DNA of 64,000 nucleotides. It comes from Nibricoccus aquaticus (GTDB taxonomy: Bacteria; Verrucomicrobiota; Verrucomicrobiia; Opitutales; Opitutaceae). Shown here one piece after another: positions 1 to 12,126 of this stretch (positions are counted from its first letter, which is position 1; the number at the start of each line of letters is the position of its first letter). Location of the stretch: the NCBI RefSeq assembly GCF_002310495.1, contig NZ_CP023344.1, positions 558,001 to 622,000 on the forward strand, read 5' to 3'. The translations under genes were made by a program, and so were the position numbers. The notes below the pieces were generated by a model that was given only the letters and a program-made list of their open reading frames with translations, had not been told where the DNA came from and ran no database searches.

Positions 1-474
1 CGCGCGCAACCCAAGCCCCGTGAGCATCTCCAAAAACACAAAATAGCTCGGGCGATCCACCAGGATGATGTCCCCCGGCTCCCCGAGCACCTGCATCGCG
101 AGATAGAGCGCCTGCTGCGAACCATTCGTCACGAAAAGCCCTCGCGATAATTCCGCCGCATCAAGCTTAGCTTCGATCTTCGCCAGTCGCTCAGCCAGCA
201 GCTGCCGCAAACGCGGACGCCCCTGATTCGTTCCGTACTGGATAAACTCACGGTCGCCCGGATTGCCCAGCATCGCCTCCGTCGCTGCGCGCACAAAATC
301 CACCGGCAGCGTCGCGTTATCCGTGAAGCCCGCCGCAAGCGAAAGGAGGTTTGGCGTCTCCAGCGCCATCGTCATCAACCGCGCGATCGTCGGCGGCTGA
401 GCGCGCTCGCCGAGTGCGGAAAACGTGACAGGATTTTCTGACGCAAGAGCTGATTCGTCGGCGGATTTTTTCAT
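1..474 (-). CDS. PLP-dependent aminotransferase, class I/II (N-terminal part)
   Basis: The first 158 residues of a fold-type I PLP aminotransferase are visible; the gene runs off the left edge. The N-terminus (MKKSADES) is followed by LLSLAAGFTDNATLPVDF, then QYGTNQGRPRLRQLLAERL and FVTNGSQQALYLAMQVLGEPGD. This is the arrangement of the 2-aminoadipate/LysN-like and MocR-like aminotransferase group (substrate-arm motif, then the glycine/serine stretch near the cofactor phosphate). The catalytic lysine lies outside the window. The ATG at 474 is the first in-frame start. Substrate cannot be assigned; an amino-acid transaminase role is inferred from family only. Confidence 0.85.
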   Translation of the reverse strand, partial: MKKSADESALASENPVTFSALGERAQPPTIARLMTMALETPNLLSLAAGFTDNATLPVDFVRAATEAMLGNPGDREFIQYGTNQGRPRLRQLLAERLAKIEAKLDAAELSRGLFVTNGSQQALYLAMQVLGEPGDIILVDRPSYFVFLEMLTGLGLRA

Positions 475-649
475 GCGGCGAAGCAGGTTTTTGGGGGGCA
501 CGCGGCGCCGACGCGATGCCGGAAAAACTGTGCGGCCGAAAACGTGGCCCGGTGCCGAGGCTCGAGGTAGGGCCCGCTCGCCGAGCGCGGCCGGTTCGAC
601 TGAGCGGCCCGGCTAGACCTCGTCAAACATGCGCAGCAAATTCGGACGC

Positions 650-680
650 AAAAAAGGCGCCCGATCACTCGGGCGCCTTT
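650..680 (-). terminator. Rho-independent terminator of rpsA
   Basis: A perfect 12-bp stem (653-664 with 669-680, loop 665-668) built on GGCGCCCGA is followed on the minus strand by six T residues. It lies about 50 bases past the rpsA stop codon. Confidence 0.9.
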
Positions 681-733
681 GAAAACTGACTCAGCTTTTC
701 AGCGAGCTCAGCGGATGATGATCGTCAGACGAC

Positions 734-2413
734 TCACTCCTTGCGGGAGGCCTCGTCGAGGATGTCGCCAAGGTTCATCATGTCGCCCGAGCTGTCACGG
801 TTGAGCGCCTCGTAGGTCGCCGTCTCGGCAGCGAGCTGCTCGCTGGAGTAGTTGGCGGCCTTGATCGAGAGACCCAGACGACGCTCTTCGCGGTCGATCT
901 TGATGACGCGGGCCTGGACTTCCTGGCCGGGCTTGAGGACATCTTTGACCTTGTCGATGCGCTCTTCGCTGATCTGCGAGATGTGTACGAGACCGTCGAT
1001 ACCGTCCTTGAGCTCCACGAAGGCGCCGAAGGAGGTGATCTTGGTGACGGTGCCTTTGACGACATCGCCGATCTTGAAGTGAGCGTCGATGTCGCTCCAT
1101 GGATCGGTGGCGAGCTGCTTCATGCCGAGGCTGATGCGCTGCTGCGACGGATCGACATCGAGGACGGTGGCGTCCACTTCGTCGCCCTTCTTGAGCACTT
1201 CGGACGGATGGTTGACCTTGCGGGTCCAGCTCATGTCGGAGACGTGCACCATACCATCGATGCCCTCTTCGAGTTCGATGAAGGCGCCGTAGGTGGTCAT
1301 GTTGCGGACCTTGCCGCGCACGCGCGCACCGATCGGGTAATTGTGGCGGACCATATCCCACGGGTTCGGCTCCAGCTGACGGAGACCGAGCGAGATCTTT
1401 TGATCTTCCTTCTGGATACCGAGGACAACCGCATCGAGCTCCTGACCGACCTTGAGAAGTTCGGAGGGCTTCGAAATGCGCTTCGTCCAAGACATCTCAG
1501 TGATGTGCACGAGACCTTCGACACCGGGCTCGATCTCAACGAACGCGCCGTAAGGCACGAGGTTGACGACTTTGCCGCGGACCTTGGTGCCGACGGGGAA
1601 CTTGTTCTCGATCTCGTCCCACGGATTTTTCGTGGTCTGCTTGAGACCGAGGGAAACGCGTTCCTTCTCGCGGTTCACTTCGATGATCATGACCTGGATC
1701 TCTTCACCCTGCTTGAGCATTTCGGAGGGGTGCGTGATGCGGCCCCAGCTCATGTCGGTGATGTGGAGGAGACCGTCCATGCCGTCGAGGTCGATGAACG
1801 CACCGAAGTCGGTGATGTTCTTCACGACGCCCTTGCGAACCTGGCCGGGCTGGATCGTATCGAGGAGATTGCGACGCTTGCTGGTGCGCTGCTCTTCGAT
1901 GAGCTCGCGGCGGGAGAGAACGATGTTCTTCCGGTCGAGATTGATTTTGAGAACCTTGAAGTCGTAGGTCTGGCCCACGTACTGATCGAGGTTCTTGGGT
2001 GGCTGCACATCGATGTGCGAAGCCGGGAGGAAGGAATCGACGCCGATCGAAACGATCAGGCCGCCCTTGACCTTGGCCTTCACGCGACCCGCGGCGATGG
2101 AGCCTTCAGGGAACTTCGTGAGGATGTTATCCCAGTTCTTCTTCTGCTCGGCCTTGTCGAAGGAGAGAATGGGCGCGCCATTCTTGTCTTCGAGTTTTTC
2201 GACGAAAACGTCGATCGAGGAGCCGATTTGGAGTTCACCGATATCGATGAATTCGTTGGCGGGGATGACGCCTTCCGATTTACCGCCGATGTCGACAACG
2301 ACTTCGTTCTGACGGATTTCGGTGATGGTGCCGGGGACGATTTCTCCTTCTTTAAGTTTATCGAAGGAGGACTGCGCGAGCAGTTCTTGCATTATGGAAC
2401 TCATAGCGGACAT
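734..2413 (-). CDS. rpsA: 30S ribosomal protein S1
   Basis: The product is 559 residues from the ATG at 2413 and binds mRNA on the 30S subunit for translation initiation. Six S1 OB-fold repeats run from about residue 20 to 525. The later ones carry the typical core (ITDFGAFIDLDGMDGLLHI, VPYGAFVEIEPGVEGLVHI, MTTYGAFIELEEGIDGMVHV, ITSFGAFVELKDGIDGLVHI), and the length matches the six-domain proteobacterial form. The frame is open to a GTG at 2428, but the conserved N-terminus (MQELLAQSSFDKLKEG) starts further in, so 2413, 2404 or 2392 are all possible starts. A strong terminator follows. The leader of almost 300 bases holds a hairpin just before the start, a possible site for S1 autoregulation (inference). 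Confidence 0.97.
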   Translation of the reverse strand: MSAMSSIMQELLAQSSFDKLKEGEIVPGTITEIRQNEVVVDIGGKSEGVIPANEFIDIGELQIGSSIDVFVEKLEDKNGAPILSFDKAEQKKNWDNILTKFPEGSIAAGRVKAKVKGGLIVSIGVDSFLPASHIDVQPPKNLDQYVGQTYDFKVLKINLDRKNIVLSRRELIEEQRTSKRRNLLDTIQPGQVRKGVVKNITDFGAFIDLDGMDGLLHITDMSWGRITHPSEMLKQGEEIQVMIIEVNREKERVSLGLKQTTKNPWDEIENKFPVGTKVRGKVVNLVPYGAFVEIEPGVEGLVHITEMSWTKRISKPSELLKVGQELDAVVLGIQKEDQKISLGLRQLEPNPWDMVRHNYPIGARVRGKVRNMTTYGAFIELEEGIDGMVHVSDMSWTRKVNHPSEVLKKGDEVDATVLDVDPSQQRISLGMKQLATDPWSDIDAHFKIGDVVKGTVTKITSFGAFVELKDGIDGLVHISQISEERIDKVKDVLKPGQEVQARVIKIDREERRLGLSIKAANYSSEQLAAETATYEALNRDSSGDMMNLGDILDEASRKE

Positions 2414-7112: not shown

Positions 7113-8054
7113 TTAAACCACCGGCTCGCCAACCGCCACCGGACGCCTGAACCACCGGCGCAGCAATCCCTGCGTCGGACTAAAAACCCACGCGATCCCA
7201 AACAATCCCGCCCCTGCCACCACCATCGCCGGCCCGATCTGGCTTCCCAGCACCAGAGACAAATGAAACCCCAGCACCGCGCTCAGCGCCGCGTGCACGA
7301 CCGACAGCCCATGCACAACTGCCAATCGCGTCGAGAGCATCCCCGCCGTCGCTCCTGGCAAAATCAACATCGCCACGACCAGGATCGATCCCACCGCCTC
7401 GAACGCACTCACCACCACCACCGACAGCATGATCATCATCCCATAGTGAACCGCCGTCGTGTTGATTCCCAGCGACCGAGCCAGCCCGGCATCAAACGAA
7501 CTTACGAGCAGCTCCTTGTAGAACACGCCGATCAGTCCCGTCACCACCACCAGCACACCGCCCATACGCAGGATCGCCTCCGGAATTTCGCCCCATCCCG
7601 TGATCGCCGGGATGTACCCGATCTCCCCGTAGAGAACGCACTCCGCGTCCAGATCCACCTGACTCGAATAAACGGATACCAGCACCACGCCGATCGCGAA
7701 CAACGTCGTGAACGTCACCCCGATCGACGCGTCCTGCTTCACCCGCGTCTTCCGATGAATCGTTTCAATGATCACCGTTGTCGCCACACCCGCCAGCAAC
7801 GCCCCGAGAAACATCGCCCCCGTTCCGCGACTGCCCGTGAACAAAAACGCGATCACCAACCCCGGCAGCACACTGTGGCTCACCGCATCGCCCATCAGCG
7901 CCATGCGCCTCAGCATCAGATAATTTCCCACAAGCCCGCACGCCGCCGTTACGAGAAACCCCATCAGCATCCACGACCCCGTGAAGGGCAGATCATGCGT
8001 CCACGGCAGGACAAACATGCGCTGAAAATCGAAAACCGGGATAAGTGAGTTCAT
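7113..8054 (-). CDS. Metal ABC transporter permease (YtgD/TroD-like)
   Basis: The 313-residue ABC-3 family integral membrane protein has about eight hydrophobic segments. It shares the family signature with the upstream permease: GNYLMLRRMALMGDAVSHSVLPG near residues 40-60 and FYKELLVSSFDAGLARSLG about 170-190. It should pair with the permease-repressor fusion to form a heterodimeric channel for Mn2+, Fe2+ or Zn2+. Its ATG overlaps the stop of the upstream gene by four bases (ATGA), so the two are translationally coupled. The C-terminus RRWFRRPVAVGEPVV carries no extra domain, unlike its partner. Confidence 0.93.
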   Translation of the reverse strand: MNSLIPVFDFQRMFVLPWTHDLPFTGSWMLMGFLVTAACGLVGNYLMLRRMALMGDAVSHSVLPGLVIAFLFTGSRGTGAMFLGALLAGVATTVIIETIHRKTRVKQDASIGVTFTTLFAIGVVLVSVYSSQVDLDAECVLYGEIGYIPAITGWGEIPEAILRMGGVLVVVTGLIGVFYKELLVSSFDAGLARSLGINTTAVHYGMMIMLSVVVVSAFEAVGSILVVAMLILPGATAGMLSTRLAVVHGLSVVHAALSAVLGFHLSLVLGSQIGPAMVVAGAGLFGIAWVFSPTQGLLRRWFRRPVAVGEPVV

Positions 8055-9511
8055 GGCCGCGCCTTTCCTCCGGCTTCGCCGCTGAGTCCCCCACCCTGAT
8101 GAATCTCCTGCGCGCTCGGGATCGCTTTCCCGTGCGGGTCGCGCGTCGCATGACCGAGCCGCCGCTCCAGTTCACGCACCACATCCTCGCCGAGCACGTG
8201 CTCGATATTCTCCGCGTCGTCGTGCACGTGATCCGCCGCGATGTTCGCCGAGTTCGTCAGATAAAGCTCCCACAGCCGGTGATTGCGCACGATCTCCGCA
8301 CCGCGTTTGCGTCCAGCCGGCGTGAAATAAACCATCGGCCCGGCCACCGTCGCCAGTCCGTGCCGCTGCAACGCATCAAGCTCGCCCTGCAACTCCTGCA
8401 ACGTCGCCCGCCGCTTCTCCGCCAGCGCCGTCAACGCCACACCCTCGGCCCCCGTGCCCGTGTTCTCCCAGACATGATAAATCGCCTTCAACGTATTCTC
8501 CCGCCGCGTCCGCCCTGTATGCGACTGCCGCGCCCACCACTTCGCGATCACCCCGTGTCTCGGTCCGAATAGAAACGCCCCGAGAAACACGGCACTCGTC
8601 CCCAACACCATGAGCGGCCCCGTCGGCAGACTCTTCCCGACAAACGAGAAAAACGCCCCCGCTACCGCAGCGATCACTCCGAATAAAACCGCCAGCGTCA
8701 ACAGCCGGTGCAGCCGGTCCGTCAGCAGATACGCCGCCGCCGCCGGCGTGATCAACATAGCGGATACAAGCACTACGCCCACCGCCTGCAGTGCGATGAC
8801 CACGCTCATCGCCAGCAACAACATCAGCCCATGATGAATCCACGCCACCGGCAGACCCGACGCCCGCGCAAACCCTTCGTCAAAACTCGTCACCAAAAGC
8901 TCCTTGTAGAAAAGCCCGACGAGACTGACCGCCATCACCGTCACCACACTCATCAGCGCGATATCGCGCCCGCCGAGCGCCGCCGCCTGGCCAAACATAA
9001 AGTGATTCAACCCGCTCTGATTTCCCGTCGGGAGATTCTGAATCATCGACTGCACGCAAAGCCCCGCCGCAAAAAACGACGCCAGCACCAGCCCCAGCGC
9101 CGCGTCCTCTTTGATCCGCGTCGTCCGTGTCAACGCGCTCACCATCGCCGACCCGAGCAGCCCCGCGATCGTCGCCCCGATCAAAATAGCAACCGGATCT
9201 TTCTCCATATTCCACAAAAACCCCGCCGCCACGCCCGGCAGCACCGCATGAGAAAGCGCATCGCCCATCAGCGCCATTTTCCGCACCACAATAAATCCGC
9301 CCAGCAACCCGCAGCTGATTCCCAGCAACACCGCGCCGATCAGAGCGAACCTCAGCGACGGATCGCGAAACGTGAGAAACCGGAAAAATTGCTCCGCCAT
9401 CGTCGTCTCCGTGACATCCCCCACCCGCGCACCAAACACCGGGCCGACAGCAACGACGGCCAGTCCCAGCAACAATCCGCTCCAGCGCAAAAATGTCCGC
9501 GTCGTCGTCAT
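8051..9511 (-). CDS. Metal ABC permease fused to a DtxR/MntR-type repressor (YtgC-YtgR-like)
   Basis: The 486-residue two-part protein begins with an ABC-3 permease (residues about 1-325; GGFIVVRKMALMGDALSHAVLPG at 71-93, FYKELLVTSFDEGFARASG at 201-219). A DtxR-family module follows at about 335-465. It holds a helix-turn-helix (RRENTLKAIYHVW to FTPAGRKRGAEIV) and a metal-binding/dimerisation part with H411, E415, H430, E434, E437 and H438. Glu replaces the DtxR Cys at 434, as in Mn-sensing MntR, but the MntR N-terminal ligand pair (Asp8/Glu11) aligns with Asn339 and Lys342. The tail lacks the third SH3-like domain. In Chlamydia, YtgC is fused to YtgR in the same way and cleaved to release the repressor. 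The same is inferred here, not shown. Confidence 0.93.
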   Translation of the reverse strand: MTTTRTFLRWSGLLLGLAVVAVGPVFGARVGDVTETTMAEQFFRFLTFRDPSLRFALIGAVLLGISCGLLGGFIVVRKMALMGDALSHAVLPGVAAGFLWNMEKDPVAILIGATIAGLLGSAMVSALTRTTRIKEDAALGLVLASFFAAGLCVQSMIQNLPTGNQSGLNHFMFGQAAALGGRDIALMSVVTVMAVSLVGLFYKELLVTSFDEGFARASGLPVAWIHHGLMLLLAMSVVIALQAVGVVLVSAMLITPAAAAYLLTDRLHRLLTLAVLFGVIAAVAGAFFSFVGKSLPTGPLMVLGTSAVFLGAFLFGPRHGVIAKWWARQSHTGRTRRENTLKAIYHVWENTGTGAEGVALTALAEKRRATLQELQGELDALQRHGLATVAGPMVYFTPAGRKRGAEIVRNHRLWELYLTNSANIAADHVHDDAENIEHVLGEDVVRELERRLGHATRDPHGKAIPSAQEIHQGGGLSGEAGGKARP

Positions 9512-9515
9512 TCGA

Positions 9516-10295
9516 TCACCGCGAAGTTCCGAGTGCCGACGCCACTTCAGCCAGAATCGTCAGCCGCCCGCCATACGTCTTCTGCAACAACTCCGACGTG
9601 AAGACCTCCTCCGTTTTCCCATACGCCACCAACCGCATATTCAACAAAATCAACTGGTCGAAATACTGCCGCGCCGTCGGCAGATCGTGATGCACCACGA
9701 GAATCGTTTTCCCTTGGTCGCGCAGCTCGCGCAGCACCGTGATGATCGCCGCCTCCGTTGCTGCATCCACGCCCGCAAACGGTTCGTCCATGAAGTACAG
9801 CTCCGCCTCCTGCGCCAGCGCTCGCGCGAGAAAGACCCGCTGCTGCTGCCCGCCCGAGAGATTCGAAATCTGCCGGTCCGCGTACGGCAGCATCTGCACT
9901 TTTTCCAGACACGACCGCGCGATTTCGCGATCCGCTTTCCCCGGACGCTTCAACAATCCCAGCCTCCCGTAACGCCCCATGAGCACCACATCCATCACGT
10001 TGACCGGAAAATCCCAGTCCACCGATTCGCGCTGCGGCACATAGCCGATCCGCTTCGCCGCCTTGTCGAACGGCTCGCCAAAAAACTTCACCCACCCGCT
10101 CGCCAGCGGCAGCAGCCCCATGCACGCCTTGATGAGCGTCGATTTGCCCGCGCCGTTTGGCCCCACTATGCCCACGAGCTGCCCCGCCGGCACCACCGCA
10201 TCGATGCCCCACAGCACCGGCTTCTGATGATACGCGACAGTGAGATCGTGAATTTCCAGCGGCGGCGGAGCAGAGACTTTCTCGGTCGGACTCAT
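9516..10295 (-). CDS. Metal ABC transporter ATP-binding protein (YtgB/TroB-like)
   Basis: The 259-residue ABC ATPase shows Walker A GPNGAGKS at 45-52, a Q-loop around [13 protein letters not shown] (86-98), signature LSGGQ at 146-150, Walker B LYFMDEP at 166-172 and a switch histidine in VVHHDL. The Q-loop sequence is characteristic of manganese/zinc importers of the TroB/ZnuC group. It lies four bases before the permease-repressor fusion and 15 bases after the outer-membrane protein gene, so all are probably on one transcript. Confidence 0.95.
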
Positions 10296-10310: not shown

Positions 10311-11129
10311 TCAGAAGCGTTTCACCAAACCGGTGAACAGCACCAGATCGTCGGTGGACCGACTCAATCCCACATTCACGCCCGCGTCGAGTTGCAGGTC
10401 CGCATTCACCGCATACGTGACTCCGAAATTAAATCCAAACACTGGCTTCCCCTCGCCCACTTCTGACGTCAGCTCCAAAAATCCGCCGAGCGTCTCCGTG
10501 ATGTCATGACTCACCGTCGCCGTGTTCACCCACGCGAGCGCATAGCCATCGTCATCCGCGTTCCTCACCACATCCACTTCCGTCATCGCGCCAAAGCCCC
10601 AGCCACCCGGCAACTCCGCCGCAAACGGCAAAATCACACCGCCCTCCACCTTGTCATTACCGAGTCCATCGCGCGCCGTCGGCAGCTTCACAAACGGCAT
10701 CACTCCAAACGCTGTCTCGCCGCCATCGTTGCCCCAAAAATTCCACTTCGCCCGCAACGTCACATCGCCAAACCCACGCACCCGCTCCGTAAAGCCCGCG
10801 TCGCGGTCTTCGATCTTCGCATCGAGAAAACTGTCCACGACCACTTGCAACTCTGCGCGCGGCGTCAGCCCCACGCGCACATTGATCGGAGCAACCGCCC
10901 ACGCCTCCACCCGCACATTCGCGCGCTCCGCATTGTGACGGTCCCGCGTGTATCCGACGAAACTCGACTCGATCTGCACCCGCCCCGGCTCGACCGTGAA
11001 CGGACTCTCCGTCGCATCCGGCCGGTCCGACGTCAGCTCACGCTCCGCACGAACCGGCAGCACAGCGACACTCAGCACTCCGCCCACAACCGCCGCCAGC
11101 GCCCCCATTCGTCCGATATTCAGCTTCAT
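10311..11129 (-). CDS. Predicted outer-membrane beta-barrel protein, MetA/phenol-degradation transporter type
   Basis: The 272-residue protein has a signal peptide (cleavage near LPVRAERE) and then alternating beta-strand segments (RVQIESSFVGYTRD, PRAELQVVVDSF, FGDVTLRAKWNFWG). It ends in LVLFTGLVKRF with a C-terminal phenylalanine. The opening RELTSDRPDATESPFTVEPG is typical of small outer-membrane proteins annotated as transporters of the phenol-degradation MetA group. Its start overlaps the stop of the binding-protein gene by four bases, embedding it in the metal operon. It could be a metal-permeable porin supplying the ABC importer. That role is inferred from position only. Confidence 0.8.
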   Translation of the reverse strand: MKLNIGRMGALAAVVGGVLSVAVLPVRAERELTSDRPDATESPFTVEPGRVQIESSFVGYTRDRHNAERANVRVEAWAVAPINVRVGLTPRAELQVVVDSFLDAKIEDRDAGFTERVRGFGDVTLRAKWNFWGNDGGETAFGVMPFVKLPTARDGLGNDKVEGGVILPFAAELPGGWGFGAMTEVDVVRNADDDGYALAWVNTATVSHDITETLGGFLELTSEVGEGKPVFGFNFGVTYAVNADLQLDAGVNVGLSRSTDDLVLFTGLVKRF

Positions 11130-12055
11130 TTCAACGCCTCCACAATCGTGTTCAGGTTATGTTTAATCATGCCTTCATAGGTGCCGACGTCGTAACCATT
11201 CTCGATTTTTCCCGCCGCGCCCATCGCATCAGAAAACAATTCCCCGCCGATCGTCACGCCCGAGTCCTTCGCAATGCGTTCGATCGTCGTGTGCGACACG
11301 CTCGACTCCACAAACACCGCCTTTAGCCCGCGCTGCTTGATGAAGTCCGTCAGCTTCGCCACATCCGCCAGCGCCGCCTCGCTCACTGTGGAAATTCCCT
11401 GGAGCCCCACCACCTGAAATCCATACGCACGCCCGAAGTAGTTGTACGCATCGTGGCTCGTCACCAGCACGCGCTTCTCCACCTGCAACTCCGCCGCCTT
11501 AGCCTTGGCCCACGCATGGAGCTCCGCGAGTTCCCCGCGCGCCTTCTCCGCATTCGCCGCAAAAACCGCCTTCCGCTCCGGCGACGCCTCAACCAGCCGC
11601 GCCTCCACCACATCCACGCACATCGCCCACAGCTCCACATCGAACCACACATGCGGATCGGGATGCCCTTCAAAATCCGCCGGCTTCAACAGCTTCGCCT
11701 CAGGCAGCCCCGCCGTGATCGCGTTAACCCGCTTCCCCGACTTCGCCATCCGCGTGAACACATCCGTCATCTTCCCCTCCAGCATCAGCCCGCTATAAAA
11801 AACCACCTCCGCACGGTTGAGTCTCAACATATCCGCCGCTGTCGCCTTGTACAAATGCGGATCGACGCCCGGCCCCATCAGCACCTCCGCGCTCACCTCG
11901 GCCCCGCCCACGCGCTTCACCAAATCGTTCACCATCGCCGTCGTGCTCACAACACGCAGCGGGGCCGCATTCAAAACGCCCGCCGCTCCCGCAAGCGTCA
12001 CGACTCCCAGCGTCACACCGAGCAGCCACCGATTCCAACGCATCGAAAATTTCAT
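11126..12055 (-). CDS. Metal ABC transporter substrate-binding protein (TroA/YtgA-like)
   Basis: The 309-residue periplasmic cluster A-I binding protein captures Mn2+, Zn2+ or Fe2+. A signal peptide covers residues 1 to about 31. Metal ligands fall at H67 (GVDPHLY), H135 (DPHVWFD), H201 (TSHDAYNYF) and D276 (FSDAMG). This is the His3-Asp set of Treponema TroA, unlike the His2-Glu-Asp set of PsaA. No histidine-rich loop of ZnuA type is present. The ATG at 12055 is preferred over the GTG at 12064 because GGAGG lies just before it. First gene of the operon, with a DtxR-like operator upstream. Confidence 0.94.
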   Translation of the reverse strand: MKFSMRWNRWLLGVTLGVVTLAGAAGVLNAAPLRVVSTTAMVNDLVKRVGGAEVSAEVLMGPGVDPHLYKATAADMLRLNRAEVVFYSGLMLEGKMTDVFTRMAKSGKRVNAITAGLPEAKLLKPADFEGHPDPHVWFDVELWAMCVDVVEARLVEASPERKAVFAANAEKARGELAELHAWAKAKAAELQVEKRVLVTSHDAYNYFGRAYGFQVVGLQGISTVSEAALADVAKLTDFIKQRGLKAVFVESSVSHTTIERIAKDSGVTIGGELFSDAMGAAGKIENGYDVGTYEGMIKHNLNTIVEALK

Positions 12056-12096
12056 GCCCTCCACGCAATGACTCCTCAGCGTAGAGTCAAAAATTA

Positions 12097-12126
12097 AATT
12101 TAGGTAAGGCTAATTTTAACAGCCAA
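12097..12126 (-). promoter_or_regulatory. DtxR-like operator over a candidate promoter of the metal operon
   Basis: TTAGGTAAGGCTAATTTTA at 12100-12118 agrees at 15 of 19 positions with the DtxR/IdeR consensus TTAGGTTAGSCTAACCTAA. It lies about 45 bases upstream of the binding-protein start. On the minus strand a candidate -35 (TTGGCT, 12126-12121) and -10 (TAAATT, 12102-12097) are 18 bases apart, so a bound repressor would cover the spacer. The surrounding AT-rich stretch stands out in this GC-rich genome. The site match is seen; the function is inferred. Confidence 0.65.

Follow-up and report, generated by a model that had tools for sequence, protein, structure and literature searches.

The closest described relative of the protein analyzed here is YtgC(R) of Chlamydia trachomatis (CT069/CTL0325), in which an ABC-3 permease encoded in an ABC-importer operon continues into a DtxR-type metal domain. 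The YtgR part binds DNA (PMC6504234, PMC7755916), and the C-terminal 139 residues of YtgC repress the ytg and trpBA promoters (PMC6504234). YtgR is cleaved off the permease, and no other iron-dependent regulator is known in its cell. In 2012, Thompson et al. reported permease-repressor fusions from 11 phyla (cited in PMC5599777), and permease-DtxR fusions have so far been read as permease-repressors on the Chlamydia model. Among unfused relatives, the permease fold is that of PsaBC, the manganese importer of Streptococcus pneumoniae (7kyp), whose solved PsaC chains have 258-290 residues and no C-terminal DtxR module; the regulator fold is that of standalone proteins such as DR2539 MntR, IdeR, and the MntR of B. 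subtilis. A different kind of control is found in MetNI and ModABC, which are precedents for trans-inhibition (PMC10710835). In MetNI and ModBC, an accessory cytosolic domain with another fold, carried by the ATPase, reads the internal substrate and slows the importer.

The window, i.e., the whole stretch of 64,000 nucleotides from Nibricoccus aquaticus, contains on its minus strand an operon in the order substrate-binding protein, beta-barrel-like protein, ATPase, fusion protein, and module-free second permease (Table 1). A sequence-only reading of this DNA had proposed a permease-repressor fusion parallel to YtgC-YtgR. The fusion is real, as Pfam identifies ABC-3 and Fe_dep_repr_C within a single ORF. 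The parallel holds for the architecture and for the conserved metal ligands, but not for the PF01325 domain, whose absence that reading had not mentioned, nor for the status of sole regulator. The Phenol_MetA_deg gene, which here follows the substrate-binding protein and precedes the ATPase, occupies the same slot in L037, L038, L042, L046, L055, and L070, as well as in L077, L084, L088, L104, and L105, and its product may be an outer-membrane metal pore. The genome encodes a third, unfused ABC-3 permease with 38% identity to the fused one (L003; G000:C1:3591865-3592671, minus strand) and three Fur-family regulators, so that other metal importers are likely.

Table 1. Features of the fusion operon, in positions of the window
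Feature	Position	Strand	Remarks
Permease + DtxR-like module fusion	8051..9511	-	486 aa; AF2 pLDDT 91, pTM 0.86
ABC-3 (PsaC/MntB-type) permease domain, residues 53-315	8567..9355	-	Pfam E 4e-67; Foldseek to PsaBC 7kyp
Continuous helix 321-351, membrane domain to module (alpha1; N339, K342)	8459..8551	-	AF2, conservation
Winged-helix core, residues 352-396	8324..8458	-	Sequence degenerate, fold kept; no PF01325 match
Former DNA-recognition helix, residues 371-383, LQELQGELDALQR	8363..8401	-	Not conserved across fusions
Metal-binding/dimerisation domain, residues 397-465	8117..8323	-	Fe_dep_repr_C PF02742, E 2e-23
Second ABC-3 permease, without module	7113..8054	-	Pfam
ABC ATPase	9516..10295	-	Pfam; only ATPase-type domains found
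Beta-barrel-like protein, Phenol_MetA_deg family, operon member	10311..11129	-	Pfam; position shared with several related operons
ZnuA-family substrate-binding protein	11126..12064	-	Pfam
Operator AAAATTAGCCTTACCTAAATTT (on - strand), MntR-type	12096..12117	.	32 nt before the start of the substrate-binding protein

The module was compared with fused modules of 84 first permeases from Verrucomicrobiota, Planctomycetota, Omnitrophota, Bacteroidota, Myxococcota, and a Sumerlaeota-labelled MAG (Chlamydiota being absent), and with 24 standalone regulators, of which 23 come from fusion-bearing loci and one is the MntR of N. aquaticus. The metal-binding domain PF02742 is ubiquitous in this set, as it is found in all first-permease modules (84/84), all second-permease modules (14/14), and all standalone regulators (24/24). 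The six ligands proposed earlier (H411, E415, H430, E434, E437, and H438) are all at the named positions of the window protein. Among the 84 modules, E415, E437, and H438 are invariant, H411 is present in 83, and H430 and E434 are each present in 63, with D in 20 and 21 of the modules, respectively. The metal domain has a mean pairwise identity of 52.5% among fusions (45% for the permease) and a mean dN of 0.090 over 19 close pairs (0.107 for the permease). By these measures, purifying selection on the metal half is strong, which argues that the module is no dead remnant. N339 and K342 are also where they had been placed, at the positions of the D8/E11 pair of MntR, and they are found in 62 (H in 18, D in 4) and 64 (R in 20) of the 84 modules. 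They had been taken as a hint of changed metal choice; as a peculiarity of the fusion this is rejected, because the standalone long DtxR proteins of neighbouring loci read ENYLK at these positions and thus carry N/K too.

The DNA-reading half shows the opposite trend, having decayed in fusions from at least six phyla. PF01325 is found in 24/24 standalone regulators but in 0/84 first-permease and 0/14 second-permease modules, a comparison in which chlamydial YtgR was not among the modules scored and in which a profile non-match is no proof of lost DNA binding. Within the N. aquaticus genome, only the standalone MntR passes the PF01325 cut-off, and the fused module is not matched even at E <= 1. 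The helix-turn-helix (HTH) core, residues 351-396, is the best-kept part of short standalone MntR proteins, with a mean pairwise identity of 71%, versus 18.5% in the fusions. It is also the fastest-changing part of the fusion (mean dN 0.315 in the 19 close pairs, roughly 3.5-fold the metal-domain value), and it can be as short as 26 or as long as 58 residues, versus exactly 42 in all 24 standalone regulators. In the extreme case, the fusion of L105 has lost the greater part of the HTH, and its PF02742 domain is intact. Among 22 genomes that share the operator type of the window, recognition-helix identity is 75% for the standalone MntR, with QASVT almost invariant, versus 28% for the fusion, which hence lacks the conserved helix matching a cognate operator that characterizes DtxR/MntR repressors. 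Fused and standalone proteins cannot be told apart by the net charge of this helix. Taken from these several independent directions, it is very likely that the fused module has lost DNA recognition.

Degeneration of the sequence has not been accompanied by loss of the fold. An AlphaFold2 model of the fusion, built with 61 relatives, shows a PsaC-like permease (Foldseek against 7kyp: TM 0.92 by target, 37% identity), an unbroken helix, and a complete winged helix plus metal and dimerisation domain, i.e., the overall DtxR/MntR fold. In a structure search, the modelled module alone reaches a Z of about 20 against metal-bound DR2539 MntR and DtxR. The fused module thus has the metal ligands and whole-module fold of standalone DR2539 MntR, IdeR, and B. 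subtilis MntR, but it differs from them in having no conserved recognition helix, a variable HTH length, and a tether to the membrane domain, the permease-module junction being in the model a single continuous helix without flexible linker. Because the fold is kept in the model, 86% of fused modules conserve R367, a residue of the former HTH's turn, and HTH dN is below dS wherever dS could be computed, the fused HTH still seems constrained, and some binding of DNA or of something else may persist. The conservation of R367 suggests that the winged-helix surface probably now contacts another partner, which may be the ATPase.

Unlike Chlamydia, N. aquaticus has one intact DtxR-family repressor elsewhere in its genome, an MntR of 145 aa that retains D8/E11 and is encoded at about 1673.2 kb (L034), so that the fusion is not the sole DtxR-type regulator of its cell. 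The same is found in 72 of the 79 fusion-bearing draft genomes, which also encode a standalone PF01325 regulator; the other 7 are mostly metagenome or single-cell drafts, which may be incomplete. In many fusion operons the standalone regulator adjoins the substrate-binding gene, usually in divergent orientation.

The site near 12100, earlier offered as the module's operator, is a genuine 22-mer with a motif score of 27.6, where the 99.9% level of shuffled sequences is 13.8, and no other site in the 4.73 Mb genome matches the 18-position pattern perfectly. A scan of the sequence near it found no sigma-70-type promoter. In 26 loci, the window included, the palindrome AAAnTTAGCCnnGGCTAAnTTT, a motif built from about 30 sites in all, is found upstream of the gene for the substrate-binding protein; these sites read TTAG..CTAA or close variants, and no shuffled sequence scores as high. 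Operator type goes with the type of standalone regulator. The motif is TTAGCCnnGGCTAA where a short MntR is adjacent (7/7) and TTTGAnTAATCAAA in Verrucomicrobiota and Planctomycetota loci with an adjacent long DtxR (12/12), although the compared loci were used in part to train both motifs, and lineage, motif, and regulator type vary together. Neither motif was found in three further long-DtxR loci from Bacteroidota and Omnitrophota (L097, L100, and L107). Since operator type tracks the standalone regulator, the operator upstream of the fusion operon most likely belongs to MntR, and its earlier assignment to the fused module is not retained. A third MntR type is encoded inside the operon of L083 (4682-5161, minus strand), where the upstream palindrome is TGTAGCnnnnGCTACA; a similar site is found in L047.

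These data allow several readings of the module. Were it to act like YtgR, it would be cleaved off, or work from the membrane, and repress its own operon through the upstream operator. The domain order of chlamydial YtgC, the presence of that operator, and the winged-helix fold retained in the AlphaFold2 model are all consistent with this, yet we consider it unlikely given that PF01325 is absent from 84/84 relatives, that the recognition helix is unconserved among genomes sharing an operator type, that the genome has an intact MntR, that operator type tracks the standalone regulator, and that the model has a continuous helix in place of a linker. The degenerate winged helix in every fused relative scanned and the intact MntR likewise tell against the original proposal that the module is a repressor. 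Because the DNA-binding-domain and sole-regulator features of YtgR were looked for and not found, the Nibricoccus fusion, which shares the architecture of YtgC, is not filed as a YtgR-type repressor. The module might instead retain its dimerisation surface, bind the standalone MntR at the membrane, and so couple the state of the transporter to gene control, as when MalK titrates MalT. This would make sense of the dimerisation/metal domain being the best-conserved part of the fusion and of the standalone DtxR/MntR present in most fusion genomes, but fused metal domains separate from all standalone ones with 99% support and have little in common with the MntR helix (HRLWELYL versus HELLTNFL), which renders such pairing improbable.

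Two further readings dispense with regulation. A metal acceptor or chaperone, or a domain for transporter assembly, could also be expected to have conserved ligands where the permease opens to the cytosol and to occur on both permeases in some lineages; many relatives of the fused permease nevertheless lack the module entirely, showing that transport as such does not need it, and we give this reading a small probability. That the module is a functionless, decaying vestige would agree with the erosion of the HTH and with a permease tail in Azospirillum that resembles a further decayed module (see following), but it is very improbable given that the metal domain changes no faster than the permease and that its key ligands vary little or not at all.

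We favor, with a probability of roughly 0.6, the reading that the module is a domain of the DtxR/MntR family that has ceased to act as a DNA-binding repressor and now serves as a cytosolic metal sensor on a predicted manganese-type ABC importer. Its control of transport is suggested by the conserved ligands, by its position, and by the paired modules of some lineages. From family knowledge and the operator, one would expect MntR to repress the operon when Mn2+ is sufficient. As cytosolic Mn2+ (or Fe2+) rises, the metal would also fill the fused module, which, being rigidly joined to the last permease helix at the cytosolic face, must sit near the ATPases in such an arrangement. A conformational or dimerisation change of the metal-loaded module could then slow transport. 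The net logic would be the substrate feedback of MetNI or ModBC, exerted by a borrowed repressor domain; the sensor differs from theirs in being a DtxR domain and in its place on the permease, and its regulatory role is putative. In the open-licence literature searched, there is no description of a fused permease-DtxR protein that has lost its DNA-binding half, nor of such feedback control of Mn, Fe, or Zn ABC importers. At about even odds, this is a widespread, multi-phylum class of importers that use a former DtxR repressor as a built-in metal gauge, and YtgR would be the exception, having kept DNA binding or regained it after the loss of a standalone repressor. Most sampled permease-DtxR fusions, then, cannot safely be assumed to be repressors, and they look like importers with a repressor-derived metal sensor. 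If so, a transcription factor domain has been recruited for allosteric control of a transporter, and the evolution of YtgR becomes a testable question.

The fused first permeases form one supported clade of 86 fused rows and two contig-edge fragments, in which several phyla are mixed: besides Verrucomicrobiota and Planctomycetota, it includes Bacteroidota, Myxococcota, Omnitrophota, and the Sumerlaeota-labelled MAG. L022 and L089 at first seem to be unfused members of this clade, but both rows end at contig edges. An AU test rejects holding the fusions of Bacteroidota and Myxococcota apart from the rest (p 0.016). The sequence-only reading had suggested that the fusion is ancestral to the PVC superphylum and had called for a phylogeny of the permease and repressor parts; in these trees, which do not contain Chlamydiota, the fused clade is not restricted to PVC. 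PVC ancestry is therefore not supported, given this mixing of phyla and the 11 phyla already reported. Within the family of the window, only N. aquaticus among 14 sampled genomes has the fusion, so the distribution is patchy. The plasmid search returned no full-length fusion.

Both adjacent permeases carry a module in 14 loci, among them L006, L011, L013, L014, L015, L016, L017, L085, L100, L102, L110, L112, and L114; a heterodimeric importer of this kind would hold two modules side by side. In the tree of metal domains, the modules of first and second permeases fall together, away from every standalone regulator, with 99% support, which fits a single capture followed by duplication and losses. 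The fusion of L020 (Verrucomicrobiota) is placed outside the main clade and is probably independent in origin. This protein (385-1929, minus strand) has a long extra C-terminal extension, possibly an SH3-like domain.

Among plasmids, Azospirillum ramasamyi encodes a permease (L167:3896-5119, plus strand), adjoining a divergent mntR, whose tail is like a decayed DtxR module; this tail has neither a Pfam match nor the ligand pattern and is possibly a later stage of decay. A match on a Halopiger plasmid proved not to be a fusion, its permease and regulator being separate. The record titles of L042 (Klebsiella), L077 (Akkermansia muciniphila), and L106 (Chryseobacterium gleum) disagree with the grouping of their fused permeases, as those of L042 and L077 group with Verrucomicrobiota and that of L106 with Bacteroidota. 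At the least, L042 seems to be a metagenome bin with a wrong label.
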